Below, one piece after another: positions 2,945 to 18,402 of a stretch of 64,000 nt of DNA. Numbering within the stretch: the stretch's first letter is position 1; the number at the start of each line of letters is the position of its first letter. Below the pieces are notes generated by a model that had not been told where the DNA came from, made no database searches, and saw only the letters and a program-made list of their open reading frames with translations. The translations under genes and the position numbers were made by a program. Source of the DNA: Streptomyces caniferus (GTDB taxonomy: Bacteria; Actinomycetota; Actinomycetes; Streptomycetales; Streptomycetaceae); contig NZ_BLIN01000002.1 in NCBI RefSeq assembly GCF_009811555.1, forward strand, positions 1,178,001 through 1,242,000, given 5' to 3'.

Positions 2945-4530
2945 CGGGGCGTCGAGCTCCTTTCCCTGGCGCGCAGTTCGCGCCGCAGGATCTTTCCGGT
3001 GGTGGCGCGCGGCACGCTCTCCAGGAATTCCACGCGGCGCACTTTCTTGTACGGGGCGACCTGCCCGGCAACGTACGCGATGACCTCGTCCTCGCTCAGC
3101 CGGGCCCCCCGCTGCCGGACCACGAACGCCTTGGGCACCTCGTTGCCGTCCGTGTCCTCGACCCCGATGACCGCCGCGTCGGCGATGGCGTCGTGCGCGA
3201 GCAGCAGCGCTTCGAGGTCCGCGGGGGCGACCTGGTAGCCCTTGTATTTGATCAACTCCTTGACGCGGTCGACCACATACAGCCAGCCGTCCTCGTCCGC
3301 CCGCCCGACGTCGCCGGTGTGCAGCCAGCCGTCGGGGTCGATCATCGCGTCGGTGGCGGCGGGCCGCCCGAGGTAGCCCTTCATGACCTGCGGGCCGCGG
3401 ATGAGGATCTCGCCGCTGTGCCCCGGCGGCACGTCCTCGCCGGACTCCAGGGACACCAGCCGCATCTCGGTGTTGGGGATCAGCTTGCCGACGGCGCCCG
3501 GCGGCGGGTTCGGCGTGTCGAGCGGTACGACATGGGTGCCGGGCGAGAGTTCGGTCATCCCGTAGGCCTGCAGGACCGGCGGCAGGCCGAGCCGCCGGGA
3601 GCAGGCCGCCGCCAGCTCGGCGTCCAGGGGCGCCGCGGCGGAGACCAGGTACCGCAGGGAGGACAGGTCGTACTCGGCGACCAGGGGGTGTTTGGCCAGG
3701 GCGAGCACGATCGGGGGCGCGACGTAGACGGCCGTGATGCGGTGCTGCTCGATGGCGGCGAGGAACTGCCGCAGGTCGAAGCGGGGCAGGACGACGACGG
3801 TGGCGCCGTTGCGCAGCGGGGCGTTCATCAGGGCGGTCAGCCCGTAGATGTGGAAGAAGGGCAGCACCGCCAGCACCCGGTCGTCCGGGCCGTTGGAGAC
3901 CAGCGGGGTGAGCTGGGCGAGGTTGGTGGCGATGCTGCGGTGGGTGAGCATCACGCCCTTGGGAGAGCCGGTGGTGCCCGAGGAGTAGGGCAGTGCGGCC
4001 AGGTCGTCGGCCGGGTCGAGGGTGACGGACGGTTCCGGGTCGGTGCAGGTGAGGAGGTCCTGGACACAGCGGTGGCCCTCGGCCCGGTCGCAGACGAGGA
4101 TCTCGGCGATCCCGCCGGTCCGCGCCGCGGCGGCGCGGGCGGTGTCCAGCAGCGCCGATACGGTCACGATCCAGCGGGCCCCGGAGTCCGCCAGCTGTTG
4201 GGCGAACTCGCCCTCGGTGGCCAGCGGGTGGACGGTGGTGACCGCCGCGCCGCAGCGCGAGGCGGCGTAGAAGACGACGGGGAAGAGCACGCTGTTCGGG
4301 CTGTGCAGGGCGAGCACCTCGCCCTTGCGGACCCCGGCCGCCGTGAGGGCGGCCGCGAGCCGGCGGCTGAAGTGGTCCAGCCGGTCGTAGCCGAGGGTGG
4401 TGCCGTCGAGGCCGTCGATCAGGGCGGGCCGGTCGCCGTACTCGGCCGCCCGCCCGAGGACGGCCTCGTGGATCGGCAGCTCTACGGGCGCGACGTCGGC
4501 GTACTCGCTGTGGAAGACGTGGGACACCAT
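2941..4530 (-). CDS. Acyl-CoA ligase, 4-coumarate-CoA ligase-like (ANL superfamily)
   Basis: A 529-aa adenylate-forming enzyme that would activate a carboxylic acid to its CoA thioester through an acyl-AMP. The AMP-binding P-loop is LPYSSGTTGSPKGV (about residues 180-193), followed by YGMTELSPG (A5), WLHTGDVGRADEDGW (A7/A8 hinge), KELIKYKGYQV and the C-terminal catalytic Lys in PRATTGKILRREL (A10). The start at 4530 (MVSHVFHSEYADV) has a GGAAAGG ribosome site; an in-frame upstream extension is proline-rich and unlike the family. The length is normal. Grouping with an acyl-CoA dehydrogenase, a carboxylase and a hydratase suggests it feeds a fatty or terpenoid acid into the operon's pathway. 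It lies downstream of a remnant dehydrogenase and a promoter/operator region. Confidence 0.88.
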   Translation of the reverse strand: MVSHVFHSEYADVAPVELPIHEAVLGRAAEYGDRPALIDGLDGTTLGYDRLDHFSRRLAAALTAAGVRKGEVLALHSPNSVLFPVVFYAASRCGAAVTTVHPLATEGEFAQQLADSGARWIVTVSALLDTARAAAARTGGIAEILVCDRAEGHRCVQDLLTCTDPEPSVTLDPADDLAALPYSSGTTGSPKGVMLTHRSIATNLAQLTPLVSNGPDDRVLAVLPFFHIYGLTALMNAPLRNGATVVVLPRFDLRQFLAAIEQHRITAVYVAPPIVLALAKHPLVAEYDLSSLRYLVSAAAPLDAELAAACSRRLGLPPVLQAYGMTELSPGTHVVPLDTPNPPPGAVGKLIPNTEMRLVSLESGEDVPPGHSGEILIRGPQVMKGYLGRPAATDAMIDPDGWLHTGDVGRADEDGWLYVVDRVKELIKYKGYQVAPADLEALLLAHDAIADAAVIGVEDTDGNEVPKAFVVRQRGARLSEDEVIAYVAGQVAPYKKVRRVEFLESVPRATTGKILRRELRARERSSTPR

Positions 4531-4684
4531 GCCGGGGCCTTTCCCTTCGACGGTGGGTACGGCGGGGCGGGTACGGCGGGGTGGTGCGGGGCGGGGCGGC
4601 ACCGGTGGCACGGGTACTGGTCGGCCGGGCAGCCGGTCAGCCGGTCAGCCGGTCTGCGACTGCCACACGGGCACGGGCAGCAGC

Positions 4685-4790
4685 ATGGCGCGCTCAGTAC
4701 GACTTGGGCAGTCCCAGGGACTGGTGCGAGACGAAGTTGAGGGTCATCTCGCGGCTGACGGGGGCGATCCGCGCCGCCCGGGCGACGTTC
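4685..4790. repeat. Direct repeat, copy A (acyl-CoA dehydrogenase 3' end)
   Basis: Nearly identical to 6530-6635: the first 57 bases are the same, then scattered changes appear, and the match fades beyond about 4790. Both copies encode the C-terminal dozens of residues of an acyl-CoA dehydrogenase (ending SHQSLGLPKSY). The two copies bracket the VOC/MerR cassette, about 1.84 kb apart start to start. Confidence 0.85.
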
Positions 4791-4849
4791 ACCAGGACGG
4801 CCGTCCCGTAGTGGTGGGTGAGTCGCGCCAAAGGGACTGCTGTGCCCAT
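4694..4849 (-). pseudogene. Remnant of a second acyl-CoA dehydrogenase (51 codons)
   Basis: This short frame begins at an ATG with a good ribosome site (GAGGGGG) and starts MGT, as does the intact dehydrogenase at 7703. It then jumps to the extreme C-terminus: LTHHYGTAVLVNVARAARIA followed by PVSREMTLNFVSHQSLGLP and KSY. The intact enzyme reads LTQEYGLASLITAARVARIA at the same place. The simplest reading is a paralogous dehydrogenase gene that lost its middle by deletion and kept its start, ribosome site and end. It has no FAD or substrate site, so it cannot be an enzyme. It may persist as a translated leader for the ligase gene 163 bp downstream. Alternatively it is a by-product of the recombination that brought in the VOC/MerR cassette. 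Confidence 0.75.
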
Positions 4850-4908
4850 GAGTTCTGCCCCCTCGCTGCGCTGGACTAGCGGCCTTCAGAGGGTGACAGC
4901 GGCAGCAA

Positions 4909-4935
4909 GAACAATCAAGCGTGCTTGCATAATTT
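4909..4935 (-). promoter_or_regulatory. Operator-like site A before ligase-hydratase-TetR genes
   Basis: Read on the plus strand, the region holds CAATCAAGC, GT, GCTTGCATAATTT, with arms CAAGC/GCTTG forming a short dyad. Almost the same sequence lies upstream of the other half of the catabolic operon at 14209-14237, including the GCAAGAA..CAATCAAGC lead-in. It is placed 60-90 bp upstream of the remnant dehydrogenase start and is locally AT-rich, as expected of a promoter/operator. TetR control is inferred. In the rest of the 290-bp gap (4850-5139) I see nothing else. Confidence 0.6.
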
Positions 4936-5139
4936 GCGACGTGCACCGAGCGCCCGCCCAGTCACGTTTCCGACGGCCACACCTTCCCCGTAGGCTCAAC
5001 GGCGCCAGTACGGCGAACGGCCCACCCCGGATGCCCCGGGGCGGGCCCAGTCGCTCGACCGCGTCCTGACAGGCGCCCGCCGCACTCGACGCCGGCGACT
5101 ACACGAACCGGAACGTGATCGAGCGCCGCTACTGCCACA

Positions 5140-5958
5140 TCACTGCCAGGTGGCTGTCTCCGGGTCGATCCCGTGAGCGCGCGCGCACTCGTCGATGCTT
5201 TGCCGAAACCAGGAGGCCAGCCCGACCCGGATTCCGTCGTAGTGGGCAGAGAAGCCAGGGTCGGACTCGAACATTCTCCCCAGGCACACCTGCATCTGTC
5301 GCGTGAGCGGGAAGAAATGGGAAAATACTTCGCGGTGGCGTTCGACGAGCGCGTTCGCTTCCGGGCCGCCCGGAAGGAAACCCTGATCCAGGGCGTTGCC
5401 CAGATCGAGCTGCAACGTGGACATCGCCGCGGAGAGCGACTGCCATTGCTCCCGCGTGCGAGAAGCGGACCGCTCGGCGAACTGTGCCCATTGCACAGAA
5501 TCCCCCCACACGGTGCGGGCCTGCCGGGATCGATGGGCGTCCCAGTCCGCCCCGAAGATCTCCGACTGCGCTTCATCGTTGAGGAGGATGCCCCGCTCGT
5601 GAGCCTCGGTCATCCGTTCCAGGCGCTCGTCGAGCTGTTGCAGGTCCTGGATGCGCTCGGCGAGCTGGGCACGCTGCTCACGCAAGGTAGCGCCGATCTC
5701 CGCTGTCGCGTCATCGAGAACCTCACGCACCGCGTCCAGCCCGAGACCAGCCTCCCGGTACGCGACGATTCGATGCAGCCGTTGCAGGTCCGGGTCGGTG
5801 TACTGGCGATAGCCGGCGGTGGTGCGCACGGACGGCGACGCCAAGCCGATCTCGTCCCAATGATGAAGCGTGCGGACGGTCACTCCCACCAGCTCAGCGG
5901 CCGCGCCCACCGTGACGCCGTCACGGCTGTCGCGCTCGCTTTCAACCATGGACACCAT
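5140..5958 (-). CDS. MerR-family regulator with TipAS-like C-terminal domain
   Basis: A 272-aa protein. The N-terminal MerR DNA-binding domain is at residues about 14-85 (VTVGAAAELVGVTVRTLHHW, then a wing reading AGYRQYTDPDLQRL). A coiled-coil dimerisation helix follows (about 85-125), then an all-helical C-terminal domain resembling the antibiotic-binding TipAS domain (WDAHRSRQARTVWGDSVQW; SDPGFSAHYDGIRVGLASWF). The start at 5958 was chosen for its GGAGGGGGG ribosome site; in-frame codons reach upstream into the VOC gene. It overlaps the VOC gene by 17 bp, so the two are co-transcribed. TipA-type proteins detect thiopeptides or other drugs and activate their own operon; the matching dyad is at 6504-6520. 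The drug is unknown. Confidence 0.85.
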   Translation of the reverse strand: MVSMVESERDSRDGVTVGAAAELVGVTVRTLHHWDEIGLASPSVRTTAGYRQYTDPDLQRLHRIVAYREAGLGLDAVREVLDDATAEIGATLREQRAQLAERIQDLQQLDERLERMTEAHERGILLNDEAQSEIFGADWDAHRSRQARTVWGDSVQWAQFAERSASRTREQWQSLSAAMSTLQLDLGNALDQGFLPGGPEANALVERHREVFSHFFPLTRQMQVCLGRMFESDPGFSAHYDGIRVGLASWFRQSIDECARAHGIDPETATWQ

Positions 5959-6487
5959 TGTGGCCCCCCTCCGCCGATCCCGGGGCGAAGATTCCGGCCG
6001 AGGCGAGATCATGCGCTTCCTGGCTGTCAGGATCGAACTCCTGCGCCGCGGTGAACACGACCCGCGCACCCTCGGGGGTGATCACCTCGACGTCGCGAGT
6101 ACGCCACGGCGTATCCCGCGGCCCCGTCACGCTGCCCGGCACGAGCTCCGAACACGCCTTGACGAGGGGATCGATCTCGCTCAGCACGCATAAGAAACTC
6201 ACACTCATCGCCGGCACTTCGGGCACCTCGGCACCGGCCTCCGCAGGAACGAGCAGGACATCCTGGAACGCCCACCGGCGCAGGTGGACCACCTGCCCCG
6301 GGATGCTGAACAGCTCGATGAAGCCGAACCCTCGCACCCAGAAATCCGTCGACGCCGCCAAGTCCGACGTCGGAACCGTCACGAACACCGGCATCGCGTA
6401 GATGCCGCGGAACACCTCTGGTGCAACCGCCTTCGGTCCACGCTCGGATACGGGGCCCATTTCGAATGCGTTGAAGAAATCGCTCAT
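5942..6487 (-). CDS. VOC-fold protein (glyoxalase/bleomycin-resistance type)
   Basis: A 181-aa protein with a vicinal-oxygen-chelate fold pattern: MPVFVTVPTSDLAASTDFWV at residues 32-51, FIELFSIPGQVVHLRRW, then a second half with RDVEVITPEGARVVFTAAQ. VOC proteins bind and sequester drugs or act as metal-dependent lyases or dioxygenases. The pairing with a TipAS-type MerR regulator favours a drug-response role (inference). Codon 99 (6191-6193) is TTA, the rare bldA-dependent leucine codon of Streptomyces, so translation may be limited to late growth. The gene is preceded by a MerR-type dyad promoter and sits inside an otherwise catabolic operon, which suggests insertion of a ready-made cassette. 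Confidence 0.8.
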   Translation of the reverse strand: MSDFFNAFEMGPVSERGPKAVAPEVFRGIYAMPVFVTVPTSDLAASTDFWVRGFGFIELFSIPGQVVHLRRWAFQDVLLVPAEAGAEVPEVPAMSVSFLCVLSEIDPLVKACSELVPGSVTGPRDTPWRTRDVEVITPEGARVVFTAAQEFDPDSQEAHDLASAGIFAPGSAEGGHNGVHG

Positions 6488-6503
6488 GCCGCCTACCGTC
6501 CCC

Positions 6504-6525
6504 CCTCACGCAACGTGAGGGTCAA
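6504..6525 (-). promoter_or_regulatory. MerR-type operator/promoter of the VOC-MerR cassette
   Basis: CCTCACG-CAA-CGTGAGG (6504-6520) is a perfect 7-bp dyad with a 3-bp centre. On the minus strand the -35-like hexamer TTGACC (6525-6520) runs directly into it, the arrangement typical of MerR-activated promoters where the dyad fills an over-long spacer. A matching -10 is not obvious (GGTAGG near 6495). The VOC start codon follows within 20 bp of the dyad, so the transcript would have a very short leader. Confidence 0.7.
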
Positions 6526-6529
6526 GCCG

Positions 6530-6635
6530 CATGGCGCGCTCAGTACGACTTGGGCAGTCCCAGGGACTGGTGCGAGACGAAGTTGAGGATCATTTCGCGG
6601 CTGACCGGGGCGATCCGTGCCACCCGGGCGGCGGT
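6530..6635. repeat. Direct repeat, copy B (inside intact dehydrogenase gene)
   Basis: Counterpart of 4685-4790. It covers the stop codon and C-terminal codons of the intact acyl-CoA dehydrogenase plus about 10 bp beyond its stop. The identity of the first 57 bases, including the few bases past the stop codon, indicates that the two copies share a common origin by duplication rather than mere protein homology. Confidence 0.85.
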
Positions 6636-7703
6636 GATCAGGGAGGCGAGGCCGTACTCCTGGGTGAGGCCGTTGCCGCCGAGGGTGTGCACGGCCTGGT
6701 CGACGGCGTGGACCGCGGCCTCGGCCGCCGCGTACTTGGCCATGTTGGCGGCCTCCCCCGCGGCCATGTCGTCGCCCGCGTCGTAGAGGTGCGCCGCCTT
6801 CTGCATCATCAGCCGGGCGAGTTCCAGCTCGATATGGGCCTGGGCCAGGGGGTGGGCGATGGCCTGGTGGGCGCCGATGGGCTCCTTCCACACCTGGCGG
6901 GTACGGGCGTAGTCCACGGCCCGGTCGAGGGCGTAGCGGCCCATCCCCAGGGCGAACGCGGCGGTCATGATCCGCTCCGGGTTGAGCCCCGCGAAGAGCT
7001 GGAGGAGCCCTGCGTCCTCGTCGCCGACCAGCGCGTCGGCGGGCAGCCGGACCTCGTCCAGGGTCAGTTCGAACTGCTTCTCCGGGGCGGCGAGTTCCAT
7101 CGCGATCGGGCGGCGGCCGAAGCCGGGGGTCTCGCGCGGGACGATGAACAGGCAGGGCTTGAGGCGGCCGGTCCTGGCGTCCTCGGTGCGGCCGACGATC
7201 AGGGTCGCGTCGGCGATGTCGACGCCGGAGATGAAGACCTTGCGGCCGTTGAGGACCCAGTCACTGCCTTCCTTGCGGGCGGTGGTCGTGATGCGGTGCG
7301 AGTTGGAGCCGGCGTCCGGCTCGGTGATGCCGAAGGCCATCTTGCGGGTGCCGTCCGCGAGGCCCGGGAGCCAGGTCCGCTTCTGCTCCTCGGTGCCGAA
7401 CCGGGCGAGGACCGTGCCGCAGATGGCGGGCGAGACGACCATCATCAGCAGCGGGCAGCCGGCCGCGCCCAGCTCCTCCAGGACGAGGGAGAGTTCGACG
7501 ATGCCGCCGCCTCCACCGCCGTACTCCTCGGGGAGGTTGACGCCGAGGTAGCCGAGCTTGGCGGCCTCCGCCCAGAGTTCGTCGGTGTGCGCGCCCTCGG
7601 CCACGACGCGGGTGACGTAGTCGCGGCCGTAGCGCTTGCCGAGCGCGGCGACGGCGTCGCGCAGGGCGCGGTGCTCGTCGGATTCGAGCGTCGGGGTGCC
7701 CAT
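6540..7703 (-). CDS. Acyl-CoA dehydrogenase
   Basis: A 387-aa flavoenzyme that introduces a trans-2,3 double bond into acyl-CoA and passes electrons to ETF. Family signatures: LGYLGVNLPEEYGG (N-terminal domain), MAFGITEPDAGSNSHRITTT (FAD-contact signature, about residues 125-145), NGRKVFISGVDIADATLIVG (beta domain), and HTLGGNGLTQEYG near the C-terminus. The start MGTPTLESDEHRALRDAV has a GAGGAG ribosome site. It follows the biotin-carboxylase gene in the same direction and should be the oxidation step of the operon. The gap to the upstream gene is 246 bp, unusually long for this operon, and G-rich. The substrate chain type (isovaleryl, citronellyl or other) cannot be read. Confidence 0.9.
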   Translation of the reverse strand: MGTPTLESDEHRALRDAVAALGKRYGRDYVTRVVAEGAHTDELWAEAAKLGYLGVNLPEEYGGGGGGIVELSLVLEELGAAGCPLLMMVVSPAICGTVLARFGTEEQKRTWLPGLADGTRKMAFGITEPDAGSNSHRITTTARKEGSDWVLNGRKVFISGVDIADATLIVGRTEDARTGRLKPCLFIVPRETPGFGRRPIAMELAAPEKQFELTLDEVRLPADALVGDEDAGLLQLFAGLNPERIMTAAFALGMGRYALDRAVDYARTRQVWKEPIGAHQAIAHPLAQAHIELELARLMMQKAAHLYDAGDDMAAGEAANMAKYAAAEAAVHAVDQAVHTLGGNGLTQEYGLASLITAARVARIAPVSREMILNFVSHQSLGLPKSY

Positions 7704-14636: not shown

Positions 14637-14990
14637 ATGACGCGGGGACGGAAGATTGCGATCATTGTCCTGGGGGCGGCGGGAGTGGTCTCCACGCCGC
14701 TGATCTGGCTGCTGGGCACTCCCGGTGCGGGCGATCTGGCCGGGGCCTCCATTCAGGCCGCCGTCGGTATCGCGGCCTTGGTCTGGACGCTGTTTCAGCC
14801 CCCGGGAAATGACGCAGAGGATACGGCCGTCCGGACCGGGTCGGCGCGCGCGAGCGGCGGAGGCAGGGCCACCGCAGGAATCAGGCGCCCCCAGGGCCAC
14901 GGCAGCGGATCAGCGAAGGCGGAGGACACCGGGAACGCCACCGCAACCGGCGACGGCAGCAGTGCCACCAGCGGCATCGACTACACCTGA
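14637..14990 (+). CDS. Small two-helix membrane protein with C-terminal NLR-shared motif
   Basis: A 117-aa protein of unknown family. Residues about 6-26 (IAIIVLGAAGVVSTPLIWLL) and 36-53 (GASIQAAVGIAALVWTLF) are predicted membrane helices. The rest is a Gly/Ala/Thr/Ser-rich, disordered-looking tail. The tail ends in EDTGNATATGDGSSATSGI (96-114), which resembles two copies of a motif in the N-terminus of the NLR-like protein encoded 49 bp downstream. A GGGGAGGG ribosome site precedes the ATG at 14637; an upstream in-frame ATG lacks one. The layout (effector-like membrane domain plus C-terminal short motif, next to a STAND ATPase with the matching N-terminal motif) recalls bacterial amyloid-signalling (BASS-type) effector/NLR pairs. 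Function is inferred only from this layout. Confidence 0.7.
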   Translation: MTRGRKIAIIVLGAAGVVSTPLIWLLGTPGAGDLAGASIQAAVGIAALVWTLFQPPGNDAEDTAVRTGSARASGGGRATAGIRRPQGHGSGSAKAEDTGNATATGDGSSATSGIDYT

Positions 14991-15039
14991 TCGGCCCGGT
15001 CACAGCGCAGGCGGCAAGGACGAGGGGAGCAGCGATCGC

Positions 15040-18000
15040 ATGAGCCGAAAAGACGCGCGCCAACAGGGCCCCGACGACACCGTCCCCCACATCACGGTGG
15101 CCGACACCGGGGACGCGACGGCCACTTCCCAAGGCATGTCCGTGACCGGATACCTCGGCCCCGCCCCGGGAACCGGCCGCGCTCCCTGCTCTCCGGCGCA
15201 CGTGTCCCACACCGGGCACGCGAACGCCGCCACAGGCGGAATCGCCAACACCGGCTACATCGGCGCGCTGACCGTGCAGCAGCGTGGCCCCCAGGAACCG
15301 GCCGACTGGCCCCACCAGGTAGGCGTCATCCCGCCCGCGGCGCGGTCCTTCCTGCACCGTGCCGAGGCCGAGCGCCTACGGACGAGGGTCGACGGCGGCG
15401 GCACCGCCGTGCTGACCCAGCTGCTGACCGGCATGGGCGGGGTGGGCAAGACCCAGCTCGCCGCCGACTACGCCCGCACCGCCTGGGACAACGCCGGCGA
15501 AACGGGCGGCCTGGACGTCCTGGTCTGGGTCAACGCGAGCGCCCGCTCCCCCATCGTGACCGGATATGCCCAGGCCGGCATCGAGCTGTGCCGGGCCGAC
15601 CCCAGCGACCCCGAACATGCCGCGCGGACGTTCCTGGCCTGGCTGACCCCGAAGGCCGGAGCGAAGCCATTCCGGTGGCTGATCGTCCTGGACGACGTCA
15701 CCGACCCCGCCGACCTGCACGACCTGTGGCCCCCCGCCAGCCCTCACGGCCGCACCCTGGTCACCACCCGCCGTCGGGACGCCGCCCTCGACCCGGACGG
15801 CCACCACACCATCAAGATCGGCCTGTTCACCAAGGACGAAGCCCTCACCTACCTCACCACCTCCCTGACCGGCCGCGACGAACCCACCGACGAGCTCGCC
15901 GCCCTGGCCGAGGACCTCGGATACCTGCCCCTGGCACTCACCCAGGCCACCGCCTACCTCATCGACACCGGCGAGACCGTGGCCGCCTACCGCCGCCTGC
16001 TGGCCGACCGAACCACCACACTCAGCGCCATCGCCCCTGGCGCCTTGCCCGACAACCAGGCGCTCCCTCTGGACGCCGCCTGGTCCCTGTCCATCGACCG
16101 CGCAGACACCCTCCGCCCCGCCGGCCTGGCCCGCCCCATGCTCCGGCTCGCCTCCATGCTGGACCCCAACGGCATCCCGCACACCGTTCTGACCAGCGAG
16201 CCCGTCCTGACCTACCTCACCGCGCACCGCACCCCGACCGGTGAGCACCCCGTCGGGGAACAGGCCCCGGTCTCCCCCCGGGACGCGGTGCACGCCCTGC
16301 GAGCCCTGCACCGGCTCAGCCTCATCGACCACACCCCCGACACTCCGCACCAGGCCGTCCGCGCCCACCAGCTCATCCAGCGCGCCACCCGCGACACCCT
16401 CACCCCCCACGAGCACGATCAGCTCGCGCGTACAGCCGCCGACGCCCTCGTGGCCGCCTGGCCCGATATCGAACGCGACACCAACCTCGTCCAGACCCTG
16501 CGCGCCAACACCACCGCCCTCACCGGCCACGCCGAAGACGTCATGTACCAATCCGACACTGTCCATGAGGTGCTCATCTACGCCGGCTACAGCCTGGGCC
16601 ACACCGGCCAAGTTGCTGCCGCCGTCGAGCATTTCCACCGCATGGCCGATGTCGCCCACGGCCGCCTGGGACCGGACCACCCCGTCACCCTCACCATCCG
16701 GGGTGAACTTTTCCGCTTCCGGGGTGAGGCGGGGGATGCCGCCGGGGCTGTCACTGCCTACGCCGAACTGCTGGAGGACGTGGTGCGCGTGCTCGGCGAT
16801 GACCACGCCTTCACCCTCGCCACCCGGCACAATCTCGCCCGCTTCCGGGGTGAGACGGGGGATGCCGCCGGAGCTGCCACTGCCTACGCCGAACTACGGG
16901 AGCACATGGTGCGCGTGCTCGGCGATGACCACGCCTTCACCCTCGCCACCCGGCACAATCTCGCCCGCTTCCGGGGTGAGACGGGGGATACCGCCGGAGC
17001 TGCCACTGCCTACGCCGAACTACTGGAGCAAAGGGTGCGACTGTTGGGCCCGGACCATCCCGACACCCTCACCACCCGGGGCGAACTCGCGCGCATCCGG
17101 GGTCTGGCGGAGGATGCTGCCGGAGCCGCGGACGCCTTCGCCGAACTGCTGGAGCACATGGTGCGAGTGCTGGGCCCGGACCACCCCGACACCCTCACCA
17201 CCCGGGGCAATGTCCTTCGTTTTCGGGGTCAGATGGGGGATGCGGCCGAGGCTGCCACTGCCTACGCCGAACTGCTGGAGCACATGGTGCGAGTGCTGGG
17301 CCCGGACCACCCCGACACCCTCACCACCCGGCACAATCTCGCCTACTGGCGGGGGGAGGCGGGGGATGCGGCCGGAGCCGCGAACGCCTACGCCGAGCTC
17401 CTCGCCGACCGGGTGCGCGTGCTCGGCGACGACCACCCCTCCACCCTCACCACCCGGGGCAATATCGCCTACTGGCAGGGAAGGGCGGGGGATGCGGCCG
17501 GAGCCGCGAACGCCTTCGCCGAGCTTCTCGCCGACCGGGTGCGCGTGCAGGGCGAGAGCCACCCCGACACCCTCGACACCCGGCGCTATGTCGCCCGCTG
17601 GCGGGGAAAGGCGGGGGATGCGGCCGGAGCCGCGGACGCCTTCGCCGAACTGCTGGAGCACATAGTGCCAGTGCTCGGCGATGACCATCCCGACACTCTC
17701 ACCACCCGGGGCAATATCGCCTACTGGCGGGGGGAGGCGGGGGATGCGGCCGGAGCCGCGAACGCCTTCGCCGAGCTTCTCGCCGACCGGGTGCGCGTGC
17801 TGGGCGAGGGCCACCCCGACACCCTCGACACCCGGCGCTATGTCGCCCGCTGGCGGGGAAAGGCGGGGGATGCGGCCGGAGCCGCGGACGCCTTCGCCGA
17901 ACTGCTGGAGCACATAGTGCCAGTGCTCGGCGATGACCATCCCGACACTCTCACCACCCGGGGCAATATCGCCTACTGGCGGGGGGAGGCGGGGGATGCG

Positions 18001-18402
18001 GCCGGAGCCGCGAACGCCTTCGCCGAGCTTCTCGCCGACCGGGTGCGCGTGCAGGGCGCTGACCATCCCAACACCCTCACCACGCGGCACAATCTCGCCT
18101 ATTGCCGGGGAAGGGCGGGGGATGCGGCCGGAGCCGCGAACGCCTTCGCCGAGCTTCTCGCCGACCGGGTGCGCGTGCAGGGCGAGAGCCACCCCGACAC
18201 CCTCACCACCCTGCGCCATGTCGCGCACTGGCGGGGAAAGGCGGGGGATACGGCCGGAGCCGCGGACGCCTACGCCGAACTGCTGGAGCACATGGTGCCG
18301 GGTGCCGGGCGATGGACATCCCGGAACCCGGACCTATGGCGCCGACTGGCGGGGGACGCGGCCGTTGGGGACGCGGCCGTTGATGAATCGACCGATTCCT
18401 GA
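15040..18402 (+). CDS. NB-ARC/TPR STAND ATPase (NLR-like), with two N-terminal motif repeats
   Basis: A 1120-aa protein. Residues 19-40 and 55-75 carry two copies of a short motif (ADTGDATATSQGMSVTGYLG; SHTGHANAATGGIANTGYIG). The NB-ARC ATPase follows: Walker A GMGGVGKT (131-138), Walker B LIVLDD (214-219), GRTLVTTRRRD (sensor-like) and LGYLPLALTQA (GxP/GLPL motif). A winged-helix-like region follows (AVHALRALHRLSLIDHTPD). From residue 543 there are 13 kinesin-light-chain-type TPRs of exactly 42 residues each (pattern LGxDHPxTLxTRxxxAxxRG, then AGDAAGAAxAYAELLxxxVRV). A GGGGAG ribosome site precedes the ATG at 15040; reading further upstream would run into the membrane-protein gene. STAND proteins oligomerise on ligand sensing by the repeats. 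The C-terminal 30 residues past the last repeat are degenerate. The role (defence, differentiation or other) is not known. Confidence 0.88.
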   Translation: MSRKDARQQGPDDTVPHITVADTGDATATSQGMSVTGYLGPAPGTGRAPCSPAHVSHTGHANAATGGIANTGYIGALTVQQRGPQEPADWPHQVGVIPPAARSFLHRAEAERLRTRVDGGGTAVLTQLLTGMGGVGKTQLAADYARTAWDNAGETGGLDVLVWVNASARSPIVTGYAQAGIELCRADPSDPEHAARTFLAWLTPKAGAKPFRWLIVLDDVTDPADLHDLWPPASPHGRTLVTTRRRDAALDPDGHHTIKIGLFTKDEALTYLTTSLTGRDEPTDELAALAEDLGYLPLALTQATAYLIDTGETVAAYRRLLADRTTTLSAIAPGALPDNQALPLDAAWSLSIDRADTLRPAGLARPMLRLASMLDPNGIPHTVLTSEPVLTYLTAHRTPTGEHPVGEQAPVSPRDAVHALRALHRLSLIDHTPDTPHQAVRAHQLIQRATRDTLTPHEHDQLARTAADALVAAWPDIERDTNLVQTLRANTTALTGHAEDVMYQSDTVHEVLIYAGYSLGHTGQVAAAVEHFHRMADVAHGRLGPDHPVTLTIRGELFRFRGEAGDAAGAVTAYAELLEDVVRVLGDDHAFTLATRHNLARFRGETGDAAGAATAYAELREHMVRVLGDDHAFTLATRHNLARFRGETGDTAGAATAYAELLEQRVRLLGPDHPDTLTTRGELARIRGLAEDAAGAADAFAELLEHMVRVLGPDHPDTLTTRGNVLRFRGQMGDAAEAATAYAELLEHMVRVLGPDHPDTLTTRHNLAYWRGEAGDAAGAANAYAELLADRVRVLGDDHPSTLTTRGNIAYWQGRAGDAAGAANAFAELLADRVRVQGESHPDTLDTRRYVARWRGKAGDAAGAADAFAELLEHIVPVLGDDHPDTLTTRGNIAYWRGEAGDAAGAANAFAELLADRVRVLGEGHPDTLDTRRYVARWRGKAGDAAGAADAFAELLEHIVPVLGDDHPDTLTTRGNIAYWRGEAGDAAGAANAFAELLADRVRVQGADHPNTLTTRHNLAYCRGRAGDAAGAANAFAELLADRVRVQGESHPDTLTTLRHVAHWRGKAGDTAGAADAYAELLEHMVPGAGRWTSRNPDLWRRLAGDAAVGDAAVDESTDS
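16666..18300 (+). repeat. Thirteen 126-bp TPR-coding tandem repeats
   Basis: Units start at 16666 and every 126 bp thereafter to 18178; the thirteenth breaks down after about 18297. Units 2 and 3 (16792-17043) are nearly identical for their first two thirds. Units 8-9 (17548-17799) and 10-11 (17800-18051) are a 252-bp tandem duplication that I read as differing at only two bases, so the array has expanded recently. The repeats are inside an open frame, so this is not a CRISPR array. Confidence 0.92.

Follow-up and report, generated by a model that had tools for sequence, protein, structure and literature searches.

The stretch of DNA analyzed here, referred to as the window, comprises 64,000 nucleotides of the Streptomyces caniferus genome (contig NZ_BLIN01000002.1, positions 1,178,001 to 1,242,000; genome of 9.15 Mb in 10 contigs) and harbors two adjacent genes that form the subject of this work (Table 1). 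The upstream gene encodes a small two-transmembrane (two-TM) protein, P0001, and is followed after a gap of 49 bases by the gene for P0002, an NB-ARC/DUF7779/TPR protein of 1120 aa; we call the former the effector and the latter the receptor. Each protein carries two copies of a motif of ≈20 residues, T-G-x-A-x-A-x(4-6)-A-x-[TS]-G-[IYV], hereafter the TG tag, and the four copies lie within ≈450 bp spanning the gene boundary (window positions 14820-15264). In alignments, the motif reads as T-G-x-A-x-A, a G-rich turn, and then A-x-[TS]-G-[I/V or Y], with fixed small residues alternating with variable ones as in a β-strand.

Table 1. Features of the two-gene locus in the window, and locus coordinates of the membrane-spanning partners found beside related effectors
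Feature	Position	Strand	Evidence
Two-TM effector gene (117 aa, P0001)	14637..14990	+	Open reading frame (ORF), homologues
TM helix 1 (residues 7-25)	14655..14711	+	Hydropathy; AlphaFold2 helix 3-25
TM helix 2 (residues 34-52)	14736..14792	+	Hydropathy; AlphaFold2 helix 31-52
Effector motif copy 1 (residues 62-83)	14820..14885	+	Alignment A3, conservation, AlphaFold2 strands 62-65/70-72/77-83
Effector motif copy 2, C-terminal (residues 93-117, ends GIDYT)	14913..14987	+	Alignment A3, conservation, strands 93-96/101-103/109-115
NB-ARC/TPR STAND receptor gene (1120 aa, P0002)	15040..18402	+	ORF, Pfam, NCBIfam
Receptor motif copy 1 (residues ≈18-39)	15091..15156	+	A2/A4, predicted strands
Receptor motif copy 2 (residues ≈53-75)	15196..15264	+	A2/A4, predicted strands
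NB-ARC NTPase domain (residues 129-301)	15424..15942	+	Pfam PF00931, E 7.1e-11
DUF7779 (residues 364-458)	16129..16413	+	Pfam PF25000, 31.4 bits vs cut-off 27
TPR array, 13 copies of a 126-bp (42-aa) unit, putative sensor	16675..18314	+	DNA repeat; TPR_12/TPR_10
Membrane-spanning partner, L053	L053:3233-4294
Membrane-spanning partner, L073	L073:6096-7688
Membrane-spanning partner, L082	L082:3250-4878
Membrane-spanning partner, L070	L070:6377-7609

P0001 consists of a basic N terminus, two hydrophobic helices, and a long tail, EDTGNATATGDGSSATSGIDYT, that ends in GIDYT (hydropathy scan). In its AlphaFold2 model, the TM part is two helices only, and the tail folds into two sets of three strands (10-residue block means 78-92). 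An earlier note on this DNA had described both genes, two membrane helices and a tail motif in the 117-aa protein, and two similar blocks at the start of the NB-ARC/TPR protein. We confirm the two genes, the hydrophobic segments (residues 7-25 and 34-52), and the receptor blocks; the tail motif is also present, although the tail quoted in the note stopped three residues short of the true end, and the first effector copy, RTGSARASGGGRATAGIRRP (residues ≈62-83), had been overlooked, so that there are two copies per protein. The geometry that the note likened to BASS systems, with the motif at the effector C terminus and at the N terminus of a receptor encoded next door, holds. P0001 was without known family in Pfam, PADLOC, NCBIfam (E up to 1), and PHROGs (E up to 0.1), and a Foldseek search with the whole model returned unrelated helical chains only.

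Among 129 listed proteins (P0001 included, together with the best 120 of 179 homologues), 128 keep the tail motif, 123 of them by a loose pattern and five by eye with one substitution each, and the remaining protein has a different tail and is probably frameshifted; two hydrophobic segments are found in 119 of 128 homologues and one in the other nine by the same simple hydropathy scan as used for P0001. In the most divergent effectors of profile A1 (L056, L081, and L083; 28-35% identity), the TM part has changed and the G/T positions of the motif are kept, and across 96 homologues the motif positions rank among the most conserved effector columns. The tight clustering of four copies across a gene boundary would also fit a relic of an ancestral four-repeat array that was split over two genes and has no present signaling function, but we consider such an origin very improbable given this conservation, the presence of the tag on unrelated domains and partners, and a two-TM domain that has a different, again matched, tag (L142; both below).

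P0002 scores 436.8 bits on NCBIfam NF040586 (FxSxx_TPR, FxsT; cut-off 300) and therefore shares NB-ARC/TPR ancestry with the FxsT family, although the FxsT name may reflect merely this common NB-ARC/TPR body. When P0002 is compared with two near relatives (L039 and L040), residues 801-900 align poorly (36/100 and 16/100 identical), whereas the other hundred-residue blocks are 71-96% identical, which suggests a copy-number change in the TPR sensor array; the last 20 residues have no counterpart in either relative. A second, divergent pair is found on another contig of the same genome (L038, G000:C5:413000-425000; effector 3433-3801, receptor frame 3805-6873), with an effector that is 62% identical to P0001.

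Compared as sequences, the effector and receptor motifs match far above chance. An hhalign comparison of the effector profile (A1) with the receptor profile (A2) gave a probability of 97.1 (E 5.4e-11) with both repeats aligned and the TM part left out. A scan of the S. caniferus genome with A2 at E≤0.1 returned only P0002, the second receptor (C5:416876), and the second effector (C5:416639), with the next match at E 0.14 and P0001 itself absent from the list; the joint profile A5 finds all four proteins of both pairs, P0001 included. A hidden Markov model (HMM) of the effector repeats only, applied at ≥8 bits to 51 loci, matched 15 of 35 receptor ORFs versus 12 of 8040 other ORFs (those that are neither effector nor NB-ARC match), and ten of these 12 are, by reading, partner genes or a further effector, or else pieces of such genes. 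Six-frame scanning of 199 same-genus genomes with A5 yielded 65 matches at E≤1e-6, and for 50 of these another same-strand match lies within 1 kb, so that the pairing of motifs is not due to chance; some of the 15 unpaired matches are effectors with a divergent partner motif (e.g., L052 and L061). Finally, a non-effector ORF covers both receptor-profile repeats at ≥15 bits in 41 of 52 named loci, some of whose genomes also contributed to A2, and 33 of these 41 ORFs are NB-ARC matches. These figures are to be read with the composition of the set in mind, in that profiles A1, A2, and A5 include loci later searched and near-duplicate loci are present (e.g., L056/L057 and L144/L147).

Gene adjacency was counted in 71 loci (the window, 50, and 20 more), which gave 56 full-length two-TM effectors. 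A motif-bearing gene lies directly downstream of 45 of the 56, compared with 31 of 1587 background ORFs that match. The regular expression behind this count postdates the first look at the receptor motifs, and each effector was given up to three candidate ORFs, whereas each background ORF contributed a single N-terminal window. That ≈2% of background ORFs match this loose pattern is the one point in favor of a chance similarity between Ala/Gly/Thr-rich low-complexity segments in a GC-rich genome; yet at least three of the 25 background matches printed are real partners (L080, L084, and L086), and a chance or low-complexity origin was rejected on the effector-repeat HMM, the own-genome scan, the adjacency count, and the 199-genome pairing, with the hhalign match also speaking against it, such that we give it almost no credence. 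The earlier note had likewise tied the pairing to three expectations, namely that homologues keep the tail, that they stand next to NB-ARC genes, and that the motif is not equally common in unrelated tails. All three are borne out by the tail, adjacency, and background counts above and by the few matches elsewhere in genomes, with the correction that partners include, besides NB-ARC proteins, NACHT proteins, other STAND proteins, and TM proteins without a recognized NTPase.

The 11 effectors scored as misses comprise three with a broken receptor frame in which the motif is visible in a fragment (L041, L044, and L048), three with a divergent motif by eye (L065, L082, and L132), one whose partner motif is found by the effector-repeat HMM (L070), and four with no clear partner motif (L081, L131, L139, and L143). 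Partners are mostly NB-ARC/TPR proteins, with NACHT partners in L077, L083, and, weakly, L068, and weak or other STAND partners in L059, L061, L132, and L140. A further group is membrane-spanning: the motif stands at the N terminus, a TM segment follows, and the remainder is presumed to lie outside the cell (hydropathy for L073 and L082; reading for L053); the L070 partner also has a TM segment by hydropathy, and Pfam scans gave no NTPase in any of these four. The hydropathy scan of partners returned nine with a segment within residues 1-420, which include L070, L073, and L082, weak single segments in L052 (falling on the motif itself), L055, L071, L128, and L143, and six C-terminal segments in L083; L053 is absent from this output, probably because another frame was picked. 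At L282, the neighbor of a two-TM effector (285-aa frame, L282:2279-3133) bears the motif, with no STAND domain recognized by reading and no family search made.

These partners bear on the proposal that the two-TM protein is a membrane anchor or adaptor that tethers the receptor through motif–motif binding, with the receptor or a third protein as the real effector. The same adjacency and motif data fit this proposal, but the partners in L053, L070, L073, and L082 bring their own TM segment and so would need no anchor, and the tag is also found on two unrelated domains in effector position (below), for which exchangeable effectors provide a better fit than a fixed anchor. We therefore regard an anchor as unlikely.

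The TG tag is located C-terminal to two further domains, both helical and in effector position: class B (VEIAVGY...; L076, L078, L079, and L134), present in 6 of 101 genomes, and class C (MLxEALTALAAAGG...; L057, L080, L084, L086, L138, and L289), present in 43 of 101. The two-TM, class B, and class C domains are mutually unmatched (hhalign probabilities 0.1-1.0). Adjoining double modules occur in L138, L134, L056, and L199, such as a class C pair with a two-TM pair (L138) or tandem class B pairs (L134). Among 39 BELL-type loci, which are the best 39 class B and class C matches, the TG pattern fits three tails (L159, L189, and, doubtfully, L176), and the remainder carry other tails. These other tails are often repeated in the partner: with L184, L185, and L196 dropped beforehand, the tail and next-gene N terminus of 36 BELL-type pairs score 46.8 on average versus 30.3 ± 1.6 when shuffled (0/5000), and the true partner is the top-scoring one in 9 of these pairs and has a median rank of 3.5, with no echo visible in several loci (e.g., L162, L165, and L177), where the picked frame may be wrong. 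Examples include SGNTFHGPTAVQVGDHN with GNTFHGPTALQVGTGN, SQVLGSGNM with SQVLGQGSL, and RVYQLGQGEM with RVYQVAEGNM, the last of which (L183) looks RHIM-like. Conversely, the two-TM effector of L142 (2913-3440, with its STAND neighbor at 3425-7615) has a different tail, GERSIAAGGNVGIADTGD, that is echoed by GERAVAIGGNAFAVVTGD in this neighbor, a tag swap on the two-TM domain.

On these sequences, the tag is an interchangeable plug that is also used by BELL-type effectors and by other STAND and membrane-spanning partners. Fine cognate specificity within the TG family was sought by shuffling the usable pairs from 46 of the 52 named and 55 of the 56 other two-TM loci and was not found, with little or no preference for the true partner (145/5000 and 1443/5000 shuffles as good). 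The class C loci L159-L188, with many different tails that are often echoed by the next gene, make up a set for cataloguing bacterial signaling tags.

As in the effector tail, AlphaFold2 predicts two sets of three strands in the receptor N terminus (mean predicted local distance difference test score 81.5). Foldseek lists four PDB matches for this region, three to HET-s and one to FapC, all of them functional amyloids and none significant (best E 0.89), and the single, weak PHROGs match is phrog_5392 (unknown function; E 0.016). Two motif copies in each protein, a prediction of two compact rungs, and a low Q/N content could instead support homotypic docking without amyloid, in which a finite β-solenoid or edge-strand contact gives a defined hetero-oligomer, for example a wheel of the resistosome type, and no open-ended templated fiber forms. 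That the closest listed PDB folds are amyloids, though not significantly so, and that relatives of the tag-sharing BELL-type domains bear different tags, one RHIM-like by reading (L183), argue against finite docking, which to us is a rather improbable account.

We thus favor, as the probable reading, a two-gene receptor–effector module of the BASS kind, in which the receptor, on oligomerizing, templates the tag of its two-TM neighbor and thereby brings about an assembly of the latter in the membrane. The TPR array would sense a trigger and the NB-ARC/TPR protein would oligomerize, as expected from its family; this would gather the N-terminal TGxAxA pairs, each predicted as two β-rungs, and nucleate a β-assembly. 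The presumably cytosolic tail of the two-TM protein, with the same two predicted rungs and a matching doubled motif, would then be recruited and templated, and the clustered two-TM hairpins would disrupt the membrane and bring about cell death or arrest. Amyloid templating, pore formation, and a role in defense are what we infer here.

Homologues of P0001 number 179 among 5.8 billion proteins, and the best 120 of these are, where named, nearly all from Streptomyces, plus one from Microbispora. At the genus level, 49 of 295 genomes match P0001, weak or motif-only matches included, and at the order level 44 of 293; at the class level, 18 of 394 genomes match, in 9 of 137 genera, although five of the 18 match only at E>1e-4 and four of these (G547, G726, G744, and G821) look spurious, the locus having been inspected in G547 only. 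The 52 named loci come from a profile scan of GTDB contigs and include Streptantibioticus, Kitasatospora, and one Streptosporangium-labelled record. Homologues are also found in 19 of 72,556 plasmid records at E≤1e-5 (18 Streptomyces and one Embleya). A phage origin was rejected, with no homologue at the same threshold among 50,697 phage records.

A broader and more tentative possibility, which we hold to be less likely than the module itself, is that a HET-s-like two-rung tag, unrelated in sequence to known prion tags, acts as a universal plug across Streptomyces and its relatives. STAND receptors, and likewise membrane-spanning proteins for which an extracytoplasmic domain is presumed (L053, L073, and L082), would be coupled by this tag to three mutually unrelated effector domains, one of them a two-TM pore, and amyloid templating would carry signals from inside the cell and from its surface alike to membrane killing. 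If the module works as proposed, a minimal two-helix membrane effector (≈55 aa) and a HET-s-like tag doubled on both sides would join bacterial amyloid signaling. The neighbors of the TG-tag family show tags swapped between unrelated effectors and receptors and provide material on how tag specificity evolves and on what receptors sense in multicellular bacteria.

The effectors of CBASS and related systems include small two-TM proteins that are presumed to permeabilize the membrane on oligomerizing and that work with nucleotide sensors and are not known to use short amyloid-like tags. P0001 is like these in size and TM plan but without a PADLOC match. The HET-s/NWD2 system (described in part in PMC8086366) also features two pseudo-repeats of ≈21 residues in the effector tail that are matched by the N terminus of a neighboring NLR, and two rungs are predicted here. 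The present system differs in that the receptor has two repeats, not one, and a TM hairpin takes the place of a HeLo domain in the effector. No homology to the HET-s repeats emerged when PDB sequences were searched with profiles up to E 1 (no match for A3; superoxide dismutase only, at E 0.23, for A4), and the pair is not classed as a HET-s relative.

Two-gene amyloid signaling systems of the BASS/BELL-NLR kind were reportedly set out by Dyrka et al. in 2020 in J Mol Biol. Published accounts, drawn on in part, describe effector tails with varied tags that are echoed by the N terminus of the neighbor (PMC7889193), with further coverage of such systems in PMC12261475, PMC9815663, and PMC8086366, the last of which notes that repeats of BASS4 on the Bell side are relatively frequent. 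As far as these parts go, the layout found here is that of a BASS pair, BASS1-10 being known here by description only: an adjacent STAND receptor with an N-terminal motif, a small membrane-directed effector with a matching C-terminal motif, a motif length of 20-40 residues, an occurrence in actinobacteria, and a TG tag that is also carried by domains behaving like BELL. The two-TM part is kept apart from BELL because hhalign finds no match between it and either of the BELL-type domains described above (probabilities 0.8 and 0.1) and its model shows two helices only. A literature search found no title or abstract on a two-TM BASS effector. Relative to those parts of the published BASS/BELL descriptions, three features are new: an effector that is a two-TM hairpin of ≈55 aa, a tag doubled on both sides, and partners some of which are membrane-spanning with no NTPase seen.

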